Program-made: the position numbers and the translations under genes
Assembly (NCBI RefSeq): GCF_000447795.1
Contig: NZ_AUNI01000014.1
Location: 186,001-250,000, forward strand
Direction of reading: 5' to 3'
From: Bacteriovorax sp. Seq25_V
GTDB lineage: Bacteria; Bdellovibrionota; Bacteriovoracia; Bacteriovoracales; Bacteriovoracaceae
Length of the DNA: 64,000 bases
The notes under the pieces: generated by a model
What the model was told of the DNA's origin: nothing
Database searches by the model: none
What the model saw: only the letters and a program-made list of their open reading frames with translations
Part shown: positions 53,746 to 58,299 of the stretch, piece by piece
Layout of the letters: every line of letters starts with the position of its first letter
Numbering within the stretch: position 1 is the first letter of the stretch

Positions 53746-54436
53746 TTTTCCAAATATCGATACAGCAGATGAAAATGGACTTCTTGCTTTAGGAGGCGAT
53801 CTTCATCCAGACTCACTGCTACTCGCCTACGGCCGAGGCATTTATCCATGGCCAATTGGTAGAGACTTTCCTATGGCCTGGTTCTCTCCAAGTAAACGCG
53901 GAGTAATTTTTACCGAAGACCTTCATGTTTCTCGAAGCCTTTTAAAATTTATTAAAAAATGTGATTTTTCTGTGACCTTTAACACAGACTTCAAAGAAGT
54001 GATAAGTACTTGTGCCAAGGTTCACAACCAATCGCGAGAAGGAACATGGATCACAAAAGAGATTATTGACGGCTATACGGAATTTCACCATCATGAACAC
54101 GCCTATAGTATCGAAGTCAGAAACCCCAAAGGAGAACTTATTGGTGGTCTATACGGTGTTATCCTGGGCGGATTTATAAGTGGTGAGTCCATGTTTCATA
54201 AAGAAAAGAATGCATCAAAGGTTGCCCTCTTCGTCCTCTTATATAATCTCAGAAAGCTTGGTATTCCATACCTTGATACACAGATGATCACCAACACCAC
54301 AAAGAACTTCGGTGCGACCGAGATCTCTCGTGATAAATTCAAGCATCTACTTCAGATGTCTTTAGGGATGAAAAAAATTGATGTTAAGAATTTTAATCTC
54401 AACATCCATGAGATTGCGCAAAGCCTTACAAACTAA
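53732..54436 (+). CDS. aat: Leucyl/phenylalanyl-tRNA-protein transferase
   Basis: A 234-residue enzyme that adds Leu or Phe from tRNA to the N-terminus of proteins (N-degron tagging for ClpAP). Signatures: GLLALGGDLHPDSLLLAYGRGIYPWP near the start, WFSPSKRGVIF, and later GGLYGVILGGFISGESMF. The start ATG lies within the end of the arginase gene; GAGG precedes it. Its 3' end overlaps the convergent Cys-rich small gene by 11 bases. Confidence 0.95.
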   Translation: MPIIDFPNIDTADENGLLALGGDLHPDSLLLAYGRGIYPWPIGRDFPMAWFSPSKRGVIFTEDLHVSRSLLKFIKKCDFSVTFNTDFKEVISTCAKVHNQSREGTWITKEIIDGYTEFHHHEHAYSIEVRNPKGELIGGLYGVILGGFISGESMFHKEKNASKVALFVLLYNLRKLGIPYLDTQMITNTTKNFGATEISRDKFKHLLQMSLGMKKIDVKNFNLNIHEIAQSLTN

Positions 54437-54740
54437 CAATCTGCCCAGAAATCTTAACTGGTCTCATTTCCACTTTTTGGTGAAACGAACAGTCTCCACA
54501 AGAATTACATAGGGCTAGATTAAGTTTAGCTTCCTTTTCAAAGAGAAAAGCATTCGTGTGACATACTTCATTTAATTCAGAAATGTCACTTTCTGAAATC
54601 TTTGATTTTGCCACAGGAAAGAGTAACGAGTTAACAGTAACCTCAGATCGACTTACTCCATTTAATGAAAGTAAATTTAGACGCTTAAAAAAAGAATTAA
54701 TTGTACCTGATGACGAGTAAATTTTTTTATTAAAAATCAT
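54426..54740 (-). CDS. Small protein with a C-x2-C-x2-C cluster, in the NuoB/NuoCD-like operon
   Basis: A 104-residue protein. A CNSCGDC motif near residue 78 and a further Cys (EVCHTN, about 61) could bind an Fe-S cluster or zinc, but the spacing is not the full ferredoxin CxxCxxCxxxCP. No other motif. It overlaps the NuoCD-like gene by four bases and is the last gene of that operon. By analogy it could take the place of an electron-transfer subunit; that is inference. Confidence 0.6.
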   Translation of the reverse strand: MIFNKKIYSSSGTINSFFKRLNLLSLNGVSRSEVTVNSLLFPVAKSKISESDISELNEVCHTNAFLFEKEAKLNLALCNSCGDCSFHQKVEMRPVKISGQIVSL

Positions 54741-56260
54741 TTAACAACCTCTGAAATATTTAAACCGAGAGTCACCCAATCCATCGCGATCAAGTCTACA
54801 TTAGTATGCGAATAGAAGTTCTCAAAAGAATAGAGAAATCTAAGAGATGGATTAATTACGTGGAAACGACTCATCATATGCTGAGAAGGCAGTGAATGCA
54901 TAATAAAACTGATATCACCGTGAGCATTTTCTGTCGTCGCAAATAAGATTTCTTCTTCTTCAAAATGTGGAACAGAGAAATGAGCACTATCTGCCGAGAA
55001 TACCGGAAAGCCTTCGACTAGTCTTACAATATTTGAACTAACTTCAAGAACCTCTTCAAGTCTAATCAATAGACGATCATATGAAGACCCTGAAATCCCA
55101 AGCGGAACTTTCAATTCAAGCTGATCGTAGAGATAGAATGGTTGATTTTTTCTAATATCATAACTAACACCAAAGCTTCTTAGGCCCAGTCCACTTAGAC
55201 CAGCTTTTAATGGATGAATTGTCTTATTAGAAATCATCGTCTTCTTTACAATTCTATCTAGAGAAACAATTGAAGACTTTAATTTTTCAAGCAATGGACC
55301 ATACTTTTGAAGTAATTCGATACACTTTCTGAGCCAGCCTTCTGGAAGTCTCGATTCAAAATCATTAGTAATTATAGGATATGGTCGACCTGAATCGATC
55401 TGACAAAACAACATATAGAAATCATTTTGAATACTTTCACAGAGTTCATTCGCAGACTTTTCATCGATTAGTAAAAAACTTTCTTTCAAAGATTGAATAT
55501 GCTCATAGAGACGCGAAATTTCAAGAAAAAGCATTTTCTTGGCTTCAAGGTATTGAGTATAAGTGGTTCCTTTAAGATATGATTGGACTTCAAACCAAAG
55601 AAGCTGATACGAAAATGGGGTATAAATATTGAAATGACTAATATACTTTGGATAGTCGCTTATATTAATTTTTTCAAATCGTTTCTCTAGGCCTATAAAT
55701 GGAGAATCTTGAGAGACCTTCATCTTTTGAATGTTCTTACCGTTTGTTAAGAACTCAAAACTCACATCGCTTGACTCTACACCATACTCATGAAGATTCA
55801 CATTAAGATAATCATAGAGATCATTTTCTATTGAAGAATCACGAAGGACATCTCCCTTAACAAAATCTTTTTCGAGAAAGTGTGAATTATCCTTCTCAAG
55901 AATCTCATGTTGAATACGCTCATCGACATAGAAAGTGATACCAAAATTTTTGTATACTTCTTTTTCTTGATAGAAAAGAGAACTCCAAATTTGAGAGTAT
56001 GACTGCATTGTTTGACCAAATAAAAGAGGGCAACCAATATAACGAATCTGCTCTTTTTCAAGATCATGGAATATATAAATTAATAAGTAGCGGCTTTCAG
56101 TAATTCCGTACTTATTTTTTAAGTGAGAACTATTTAAAAGATCCAAGCAAGTGACACCTACGCATGAAATTGAACTTTTTGCACCAATTTCCGCAAATAA
56201 ATCGGCGAGTTCATCCTTACGATGGATCTTTAAAGAATCAGTTATCTTCTTTACAATCAT
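54737..56260 (-). CDS. NuoCD-like fusion protein (30 kDa + 49 kDa subunit homologue), divergent
   Basis: A 507-residue protein. Residues 1-150 resemble NuoC (HDLEKEQIRYIGCPL, QIWSSLFYQEKEVYKNFGI). Residues 160-507 resemble NuoD or the group 4 hydrogenase large subunit: IGLEKRFE, LEISRLYEHIQSL, LGLRSFGVSYDIRKNQPFYLYD, and SSYDRLLIRLEEVLE. The classical GPQHPxxHG and HRG motifs that hold the quinone-site residues are missing, and no Ni-Fe cysteine pairs are seen. It overlaps the NuoB-like gene by four bases. Function in electron transfer is likely but the acceptor is not. Confidence 0.7.
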   Translation of the reverse strand: MIVKKITDSLKIHRKDELADLFAEIGAKSSISCVGVTCLDLLNSSHLKNKYGITESRYLLIYIFHDLEKEQIRYIGCPLLFGQTMQSYSQIWSSLFYQEKEVYKNFGITFYVDERIQHEILEKDNSHFLEKDFVKGDVLRDSSIENDLYDYLNVNLHEYGVESSDVSFEFLTNGKNIQKMKVSQDSPFIGLEKRFEKINISDYPKYISHFNIYTPFSYQLLWFEVQSYLKGTTYTQYLEAKKMLFLEISRLYEHIQSLKESFLLIDEKSANELCESIQNDFYMLFCQIDSGRPYPIITNDFESRLPEGWLRKCIELLQKYGPLLEKLKSSIVSLDRIVKKTMISNKTIHPLKAGLSGLGLRSFGVSYDIRKNQPFYLYDQLELKVPLGISGSSYDRLLIRLEEVLEVSSNIVRLVEGFPVFSADSAHFSVPHFEEEEILFATTENAHGDISFIMHSLPSQHMMSRFHVINPSLRFLYSFENFYSHTNVDLIAMDWVTLGLNISEVVK

Positions 56261-56670
56261 TTCACTTCTCCACTGACTTCAGCTTCAAGAACGGAAGTGA
56301 AATTTTCAAAACGAGGAGGACAACCTGGTACGAAAGAAATCTCTCCCTTAAAATTAGTAATCTCATTTACTGTCTTTAGCATTCCCTGTGATTCGAAAAT
56401 ACCACCTGAAGTACTGCAAATACCAAAAGAAATAATTCTCTTTGTACTAATTCCTTCAATACTATTTAAAAACTCAATGTCTCGTGCACTTAACTTCTTC
56501 CCAATAACGATGATATCTGCATCATCAATATTTGTAGAAGAAGAGAAGTTACTAAAAGAAACTTTCTCATTAAATTTTGATATCTCTAGGCAGCAGCTCC
56601 CAAGGAACCAATGAAACTTTTTTCCAGTTCTTTTTGAATACGCATCACAGTACGTTTGATAATTATTCAC
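56257..56670 (-). CDS. NuoB-like Fe-S subunit
   Basis: A 137-residue protein with the NuoB/hydrogenase small-subunit core: SCCLEI (C26, C27), ADIIVIG, GICSTSGGIF (C85) and VPGCPPRFE (C117). All four cysteines that hold the N2 [4Fe-4S] cluster in complex I are present. It is shorter than most NuoB proteins at the C-terminus. GTG start with weak ribosome site. It sits between an unknown lipoprotein gene (nine-base gap) and the NuoCD-like gene (four-base overlap). No other complex I gene occurs in the window. Confidence 0.8.
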   Translation of the reverse strand: MNNYQTYCDAYSKRTGKKFHWFLGSCCLEISKFNEKVSFSNFSSSTNIDDADIIVIGKKLSARDIEFLNSIEGISTKRIISFGICSTSGGIFESQGMLKTVNEITNFKGEISFVPGCPPRFENFTSVLEAEVSGEVK

Positions 56671-56679
56671 TTTTCACCA

Positions 56680-58125
56680 TCATTTCTTTCTTTTAAAAAC
56701 TTGTACTTTCTCAGCACTTTCTTCCTTTACCCCTGTGATATAATTCCAACGAATATCTTCAGGGAAAATTGGTCGATCAATTACAACCTTATTACAAGTT
56801 TGAACCTTTCCAGTTCTTTTTACCCAATTATATATTTTTTCAGCTGTCCCATAGCTCCCACTATCGTATTCAATATACTCATAAAACTCGCTTCCCTTCG
56901 AACGATAAGTTGACAAGTAAGTAACGGCCTTTTCAAAGGCAACATTTAGTTGTGCTGAGGAACAATATGCTAGTTCTTTTTCCTGGTTATAAACAAGCTT
57001 TCCTTCTGGACCACGGTAGTTTCGCATCCACTCTCTCTTTGCACAATCATAGACGAGATTATCTTTATTTAAGAAAAAGAATGCTCTTAGATATTCATAG
57101 TACCAATGCGCATTTAAATCTGCTGTAATCTCATAACCTTTCACAAATTCCTGGCAAGCGTAGAATAAGTCTTTCTTCGTGCGGTAAAACTCTAAAAAAT
57201 ATGTTGGGAAATCCACCTCTAAATTTAGCATCTTCTTGCGACTTTCTTCTAACTCCGAATAAATTGATTCACAGCTGCGTCTTAAAGTTCTCAATTCTTT
57301 CGTCGAAAAAAGATGACCTTTTTCAACAGCAAACTTTAAAGCATTAGTTGGAAGAACTTGTCCGTAAATTTTATAAGCAGGAAAACTATTATCCTCTCCT
57401 AGAATACGGCCCCTACCATTTTCTAGAAAAGCCTTTGACTTTGGCCAGTCAATAACTTGCACAAGATCCTTGAATGATCTCACCTCTGCATACTTTGGAT
57501 CTGCCTGGGAAACCCCAATCAAAAGAATATTTGAATCCCATTTCGAAAAAGTATCACACGGATAAGTCTTACAGTACTGCTCTACAACCCCAGAGATAAT
57601 TCTAACTTTAACAATGTTAGAAAAGTGCTTTGGGTTTTGTTCAGCGATTGCCTTGTCAGCACCAAAGAAAATTACTCTTTGAGGCAACTTTGATTGATTT
57701 AAAAGTTTCGGAATAAATGCGTCATGATACGGAGGATACTCAATTGCATTTTTCTCTTTCGTCCAAACATTACTCTCTTTACAGTAAGCATGATTAAAAA
57801 CTTTTTGACCAGAAACCATATCCAACTCGTAATGATAAGGCGAATTGGCGGGAGTAGTTACTACGACGTCAACAAGGTTTTTATTAATATCGAAATCTAC
57901 TGGAGGGTCAAAAAATTGATGAATTGTGGTTCTCCCCTCATAGTCTACAGAGCTAAAGTTACGATCAGTATTGAACCACTCGGCCTCAGTGTCCTTAGTG
58001 TCAGTCAAAACAACATTTCTTGAGCAAGAATATGCGACAATAAGCATTAAAAATAAATTGAGTCCTCTTAACTTTTTAATTTGACAAATCCTCTGTAAAA
58101 GTTCAAAATTCTTTTCTGTATCCAC
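56680..58125 (-). CDS. Unknown lipoprotein heading the NuoB/NuoCD-like operon
   Basis: A 481-residue frame with a hydrophobic segment and lipobox VAYSC. The mature part, about 440 residues with many aromatic residues and scattered Cys (CKESNV, CKTYPC, CESIY, CAKREW), is unrecognised. The GTG at 58125 has no ribosome site; AGAGGA at 58089-58094 lies eight bases before an in-frame ATT at 58078-58080, which would give a normal short signal (KKLRGLNLFLMLIVAYSC). First gene of the operon. Confidence 0.6.
   Translation of the reverse strand: MDTEKNFELLQRICQIKKLRGLNLFLMLIVAYSCSRNVVLTDTKDTEAEWFNTDRNFSSVDYEGRTTIHQFFDPPVDFDINKNLVDVVVTTPANSPYHYELDMVSGQKVFNHAYCKESNVWTKEKNAIEYPPYHDAFIPKLLNQSKLPQRVIFFGADKAIAEQNPKHFSNIVKVRIISGVVEQYCKTYPCDTFSKWDSNILLIGVSQADPKYAEVRSFKDLVQVIDWPKSKAFLENGRGRILGEDNSFPAYKIYGQVLPTNALKFAVEKGHLFSTKELRTLRRSCESIYSELEESRKKMLNLEVDFPTYFLEFYRTKKDLFYACQEFVKGYEITADLNAHWYYEYLRAFFFLNKDNLVYDCAKREWMRNYRGPEGKLVYNQEKELAYCSSAQLNVAFEKAVTYLSTYRSKGSEFYEYIEYDSGSYGTAEKIYNWVKRTGKVQTCNKVVIDRPIFPEDIRWNYITGVKEESAEKVQVFKRKK
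58089..58094 (-). promoter_or_regulatory. Ribosome binding site pointing at a possible ATT start
   Basis: On the minus strand AGAGGA lies eight bases before ATT (58078-58080) in the frame of the lipoprotein gene. No ATG, GTG or TTG in frame fits the spacing. ATT is a rare start codon, known from infC. Confidence 0.4.
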
Positions 58126-58210: not shown

Positions 58211-58299
58211 GCTCAGATGGTGGAATCGGTAGACACCCAGGATTTAAAATCCTGTGGGCTTCACGGCCCGTGCGAGTTCAAGTCTCGCTCTGAGCACCA
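58211..58299 (+). tRNA. tRNA-Leu (anticodon UAA)
   Basis: An 89-base tRNA with a long variable arm. The acceptor stem pairs GCTCAGA with TCTGAGC; the anticodon stem CAGGA/TCCTG closes the loop TTTAAAA, with anticodon TAA. The T arm contains GAGTTCAAGTCTC and CCA is encoded (58297-58299). The class II shape and anticodon assign leucine (UUA/UUG). A terminator-like hairpin follows at about 40 bases. Confidence 0.97.

Follow-up and report, generated by a model that had tools for sequence, protein, structure and literature searches.

The window, a stretch of 64,000 nucleotides from Bacteriovorax sp. Seq25_V, contains a four-gene operon that we read as the retired peripheral arm of a second, 'type 2' complex I, kept together with a pseudo-pyrophosphatase lipoprotein. 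The identities of the genes, the loss of their motifs, the graded series of related operons and the purifying selection acting on them are all established from sequence. The present role is what we propose, and we consider the reading as a whole probable, with room for doubt. A literature search for the four-gene operon found nothing.

The operon and its Nuo-derived products

The four genes share one strand and are separated by one gap of nine bases and two overlaps of four, in agreement with the coordinates, strands and spacing given in the first-pass annotation. The features are as follows.

58211..58299, plus strand: tRNA-Leu (UAA), divergent from the operon and marking its boundary, outside it
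58081-58109, plus strand: promoter-like TTGACA-17-CAAAAT overlapping the 5' end of gene 1
56680..58125, minus strand: gene 1, lipoprotein of 481 aa from a putative GTG start, with a lipobox, a predicted pyrophosphatase (PPase) fold in the N-terminal domain and an unmatched C-terminal domain
57331..57888, minus strand: predicted sPPase-like domain, ∼residues 80-265 (Foldseek, profile matches, bridging relatives)
56725..57324, minus strand: predicted C-terminal disulfide-type domain, ∼residues 268-467 (AF2 pLDDT 90.2)
56257..56670, minus strand: gene 2, NuoB-like protein of 137 aa (PF01058, E 1e-8, above the Pfam cut-off)
54737..56260, minus strand: gene 3, NuoC-NuoD fusion of 507 aa (PF00346, E 4.5e-19; PF00329, E 1e-4; both above the Pfam cut-offs)
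54426..54740, minus strand: gene 4, NuoI remnant of 104 aa (alignment to the NuoI of the genome's own complex I and to relatives)
54380..54406, minus strand: terminator-like hairpin with T-tract just 3' of gene 4, a consensus match only

The operon is flanked on one side by genes for a C92 peptidase, a 2-hydroxyacid dehydrogenase, an arginase-family protein and Leu/Phe-tRNA-protein transferase (aat), and on the other by tRNA-Leu and a PilZ protein. Neighbour genes and Pfam matches revealed no membrane, NADH-input or hydrogenase gene beside it, which upholds the earlier statement that no complex I, hydrogenase or antiporter subunit is adjacent. Conservation of the gene order, a point that the first-pass annotation had raised, was found across the order Bacteriovoracales: the complete four-gene order recurs in most of the ∼70 loci read, far beyond what chance would give.

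Gene 2 carries all four ligands of cluster N2, as had been noted, at C26, C27, C85 and C117 (codons 56590-56595, 56416-56418 and 56320-56322). It matches the nuoB_fam profile TIGR01957 (E 8e-9), yet falls far below the NCBIfam cut-off for genuine NuoB, and its match in the PDB is 2fug_6 (E 9e-7). Gene 3 similarly matches NuoCD/NDUFS2 in the PDB (E 1e-14), with a NuoD score far below the NCBIfam cut-off for genuine NuoD. Its conserved core, LRSFGVSYDIRK..PLGISGSSYDR, is still there. In an alignment that included the NuoD of the same genome, the quinone-site motifs GPxHPxxHG and LHR(G) were absent from their positions in gene 3, confirming the first description of a fusion without GPQHPxxHG and HRG. 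Translation and alignment gave no CxxC pairs at the Ni-Fe positions either; the profile matches are to NuoD rather than hydrogenase, and the protein is nearer the former. As a query for related loci, the window NuoCD returned one distant NuoD-like match only.

Gene 4 had been described as a small CxxCxxC protein belonging to no assignable family. The motif is present (C78xxC81xxC84), and alignment makes the protein assignable. C60 and the three cysteines of the motif correspond to Cys IV and Cys V-VII of NuoI; Cys I-III and VIII are lost. We take Cys IV-VII of NuoI to ligate N6b, the cluster adjoining N2 in complex I, from the structure of Thermus Nqo9. By alignment, gene 4 is thus a NuoI remnant with exactly the ligand set of N6b, the ligands of N6a being gone. 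Relatives at the same place in other operons are mostly two-cluster ferredoxins of the NuoI type (2x[4Fe-4S]; Fer4, E 4e-9 in L053). The NuoI remnants of genera g24 (L054:8298-8609) and g17 (L063:6744-7058) have CxxC...CxxC pairs and are zinc-ribbon-like.

The working complex I of the genome is split over two contigs, with nuoB-C-D-I on C11 (L037:7770-10583) and nuoA-H-J-K-L-M-N on C21 (L124:8975-16708). Since the real complex I sits elsewhere, the window edge has not simply cut through a standard nuo or hydrogenase operon. The whole genome has one NuoH and one NuoLMN set, both in the nuo operon on C21, and no match to NuoF (PF01512); with a single NuoH and no NuoF, NuoE or NuoG, the enzyme is of the 11-subunit type. 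The first-pass annotation had suggested a genome-wide look for such a separate nuo set. It had also held that peripheral modules are always encoded with membrane modules, a generalization at odds with nuoBCDI and nuoAHJKLMN lying on different contigs. No dedicated membrane arm (NuoAHJKLMN) for the operon was found in the genome.

The lipoprotein and its ancestry

The lipoprotein assignment of gene 1 stands: a lipobox is present, and the lipid-bearing Cys34 is conserved in all 72 aligned relatives, followed at +2 by S, A, T or G and never by Asp. By the E. coli rule this points to an outer membrane location, in which case direct contact with NuoCD would be excluded and a third partner needed. 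Eight further cysteines are invariant among the 72: C115, C185 and C190 in the sPPase-like domain, together with W196, and C285, C324, C361, C388 and C444 in the C-terminal domain. The open reading frame also begins, in many genomes, with a conserved peptide 'LNY...CQLK' (window region 58081-58125). We rejected it as genuine protein; it looks like the tRNA-Leu promoter read antisense (TTGACA backwards is TGTCAA, Cys-Gln), and annotated lipoprotein starts are therefore probably too early.

Although the first-pass annotation could assign the lipoprotein to no family, the structure prediction that it proposed for the flanking proteins points to an origin. The AlphaFold2 model (mean pLDDT 91.5) was compared with the PDB by Foldseek, and the best 50 matches listed were all inorganic pyrophosphatases (best E 6e-9, TMt up to 0.78). 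The C-terminal domain alone gave nothing better than E 1.7 in the same database. At the level of profiles the window lipoprotein itself has no Pfam match; PF00719 was detected in 8 of the 72 family members (best E 0.0058), the family profile hit PPases only in the PDB (E 0.01-0.06), and hhalign against the genome's own PPase, which is encoded by a normal gene, gave E 0.011 at a probability of 4%.

Homology is settled by three secreted relatives (L159, L182 and L183) that bridge the two families: their E values are 1e-29 to 1e-35 against the lipoprotein profile and 1e-21 to 1e-25 against PF00719. They keep DGDPxD and have the positions of C115, C185/C190 and W196 in common with the operon lipoprotein. 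In the window protein DGDPxD has become SKLPQR, and at the three catalytic Asp columns only 0, 22 and 5 of the 72 lipoproteins, respectively, still have D or E. Going by model and alignment, the N-terminal domain is a family I inorganic pyrophosphatase fold without the catalytic DxDPxD. The bridging proteins themselves (L159:899-1993, L182:1278-2393, L183:3-821) are exported, with an apparently intact PPase active site and disulfide-type cysteines; L159 and L183 have a lipobox. Secreted pyrophosphatases seem unusual.

A graded series of reduction across the order

Related operons were surveyed in 129 genomes of the order, about 109 of which are hit by the lipoprotein profile; the rest of a phylum sample of 369 genomes in all gave only two weak matches. 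At one end of the series, genera g4 and g28 have the full form lipoprotein-NuoB-NuoCD-NuoE-NuoF-NuoG-NuoI (NuoE/F/G Pfam-verified in g4 and read in g28; the g26 contig is partial), with N2, NuoI and the quinone motifs intact and a second, tandem membrane-arm operon (L155:2486-17381, L168:2-10294). In genome G004 of g4 the NuoF of the operon is the only one. The intact motifs, the second membrane arm and this sole NuoF make it very likely that the full-form operon of g4 and g28 encodes a true 14-subunit complex I. Genus g19 (L161:3728-16001) has lost EFG and keeps a second tandem membrane arm, more divergent; g42, g44 and g48 have degenerate remains of NuoE/F/G.

The window operon is mid-way in this reductive series, one of ∼13 genera with lipoprotein-NuoB-NuoCD-NuoI and an intact N2 set. 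N2 cysteines are lost or incomplete in g3, g5, g7, g11, g17, g18, g24, g35, g36, g38, g43, g44 and g46, and in part of the window's own genus. All four are present in 38 of 68 aligned NuoBs, a count that includes two from other complexes, and the first His of GPxHP is kept in only 27 of 79 NuoCDs, full forms included. Further along, G048, G022, g21 and g22 retain lipoprotein and NuoCD only, and G018, G107, G108, G110 and G111 have the lipoprotein without an adjacent Nuo-derived gene, usually directly before aat. One clear exception to the persistence of the lipoprotein is G071, with remnants of NuoB and NuoCD and no lipoprotein detected. As the operons line up, the order of the series is loss of EFG and the second membrane arm, repeated loss of the N2 cysteines, then of NuoB and NuoI, and then of NuoCD. 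Two further candidates, L084 and L118, were rejected as modules; both are other complex I operons.

In a NuoCD tree, read with L084 set aside as itself another complex, all modules fall on one side of a 100/100 branch from the order's two other complex I types. The full forms lie nearest to those types on short branches, and the degenerate forms have long ones. Loss is the sensible direction of change, since regaining four cluster ligands is unlikely. Mapped on an independent tree of lipoprotein and aat, the N2 state changed at least six times, with four changes forced by well-supported branches.

Reading frames are intact in nearly all genomes. The g36 genomes G080 and G086 have a NuoB that lacks all four cysteines; between them, dN/dS is 0.07 for NuoB, 0.08 for NuoCD and 0.09 for the lipoprotein, and NuoCD values are 0.03-0.10 wherever dS could be estimated, the cluster-less genus included. 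Such values in cluster-less NuoB and NuoCD are not those of decay, and pseudogene decay was rejected on this ground. In the full-form operons of g4 the lipoprotein has diverged more quickly than NuoCD (66-81% against 90-95% identity); in g47 the relation is reversed (88% and 75%).

Present role and comparison with known systems

In the model that we favour, the ancestor would have been lipoprotein-NuoB-NuoCD-NuoE-NuoF-NuoG-NuoI, paired with a dedicated membrane arm. Across most of the order, EFG for NADH input, the quinone site and the membrane arm would then have been lost, with NuoB-NuoCD-NuoI staying beside a lipoprotein that descends from a secreted inorganic pyrophosphatase and has lost its active site. 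The window genome would retain a two-cluster stub, N6b next to N2, on a NuoCD scaffold without quinone motifs or a membrane arm of its own, and quinone reduction by the module would have ceased. The NuoCD-based particle may now be mainly a cytoplasmic scaffold or regulator, functionally tied to the lipoprotein, probably through the membrane. Catalysis, we propose, has no need of the Nuo parts, and this is why they are being lost. NuoCD would be the last of them to go, and the lipoprotein the lasting core, binding a periplasmic ligand, perhaps (pyro/poly)phosphate.

Two things hint at a phosphate-type ligand: the PPase ancestry, which draws on the predicted fold, and gene neighbours in a few genomes. 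In g21 and g22 (L115:5323-6977, L116, L117) the lipoprotein-NuoCD pair lies beside a PiT phosphate transporter, a PhoU-like DUF47 protein and a phosphate-selective porin, and the neighbours at L182 are a CHAD protein and a metallophosphatase. The g21 locus is also near hydrogenase-maturation-like genes (hypA/B/F by eye). The model is weakest where it pairs an exported lipoprotein with a NuoCD that is not exported; for a lipoprotein of the outer membrane this would call for a third partner, and no connecting membrane protein between the two was found. Moreover, G071 indicates that the coupling of Nuo parts and lipoprotein is not absolute.

The first-pass annotation took the operon for a stripped-down module recruited to another redox task. 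That it is isolated, stripped down and retained for something else holds good; the redox task is unsupported, given that N2 is missing or incomplete in about 13 genera under purifying selection and that five genomes have the lipoprotein without a Nuo neighbour. A module still engaged in redox chemistry would have NuoI take electrons at N6b from a cytosolic donor and pass them to N2 in NuoB and on to some acceptor, with NuoCD holding N2 at the membrane and the losses in relatives being lineage-specific. All four N2 and four N6b ligands are indeed kept in the window genome and two congeners, so some redox chemistry may still matter there, and N2 survives together with both NuoI clusters in about a dozen genera whose operons showed no NuoEFG. 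However, the quinone-site motifs are gone from the window protein, N2 or the whole of NuoB is missing from the congeners G048, G051 and G052, and g36 combines an N6b-only NuoI with a cluster-less NuoB, so that the parts of the wire are not retained together. We regard this explanation as unlikely.

That the module assists or helps to assemble a working NADH dehydrogenase, be it the 11-subunit complex I or Na+-NQR, seems more improbable still. The genome's own complex I lacks NuoEFG, and nqr shares the window's contig at a distance of 22 kb from the operon and is adjacent or near in many genomes. Nevertheless, the module occurs in genomes without NuoH (G026, which is 99% complete, G028, G119 and G123) and in genera without Nqr (g4, g15, g21 and g22), and neither partner is thus obligatory. 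Nqr has been mentioned for Bacteriovorax marinus (PMC4014512). At one locus of genus g36 (G104, L156:387-17040), an ApbE-length gene separates nqr from the complete 14-subunit nuo operon that comes after it, ∼20 kb from the remnant, which places three generations of NADH dehydrogenase in one neighbourhood. Least credible of all is a relic in which decaying Nuo parts have no function and the lipoprotein alone matters. Stepwise loss down to the lipoprotein and the long NuoCD branches would be expected of it, but the intact frames and the low dN/dS of NuoCD, even in the cluster-less genus, argue against it.

Returning to the retired arm with its pseudo-pyrophosphatase lipoprotein, a bolder version, for which we claim no better than a tentative case, is that the complex I arm is redox-independent and that two dead enzymes flanking the inner membrane form an order-specific system for signalling or for sensing or uptake of a nutrient (phosphate). 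The operons are of interest because purifying selection still maintains their complex I subunits, although NADH input, quinone site and membrane arm are gone and often the terminal cluster as well. Nearly every intermediate exists in the order, which makes it a natural experiment in the value of individual complex I parts without electron transfer. The lipoproteins form a new family whose enzymatic ancestor is clear, whose C-terminal fold is apparently unmatched and whose set of partners can be tested directly.

The nearest known system is the Q-module of complex I (NDH-1) with NuoI: the subunits are homologous, NuoC and NuoD are fused, and the window proteins have the N2 and N6b ligands. Unlike complex I, the operon has no membrane arm, NuoE/F/G or quinone motifs, a lipoprotein is added, and its relatives lose clusters altogether. 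Of the eight cysteines for N6a and N6b expected of a complex I NuoI, gene 4 retains Cys IV and V-VII, one cluster. Complex I-like enzymes of 11 subunits without the NADH module are known, for example in Desulfitobacterium (PMC11238625). The real complex I of this genome (nuoBCDI and nuoAHJKLMN) is of the same type; such enzymes keep the whole membrane arm and the quinone site, whereas the operon has neither. Group 4 [NiFe] hydrogenases of the HycE/HycG type are alike in their NuoCD-type fusion and NuoB-type small subunit, but the operon is without the Ni-Fe CxxC pairs and a membrane subunit. It is not part of the nqr operon of Na+-NQR, which lies at a distance of 22 kb and is missing from several genera with the module. 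With the soluble family I pyrophosphatases (PF00719) the lipoprotein shares the fold of its N-terminal domain, homology being traced through the active-looking secreted relatives; in contrast to them, it is an exported lipoprotein that has lost the catalytic Asp and has extra invariant Cys and Trp and an additional C-terminal domain. Judged by these sequence features, the operon fails what defines complex I (quinone site, NuoI clusters, membrane arm) and pyrophosphatase (active site), and descends from both.
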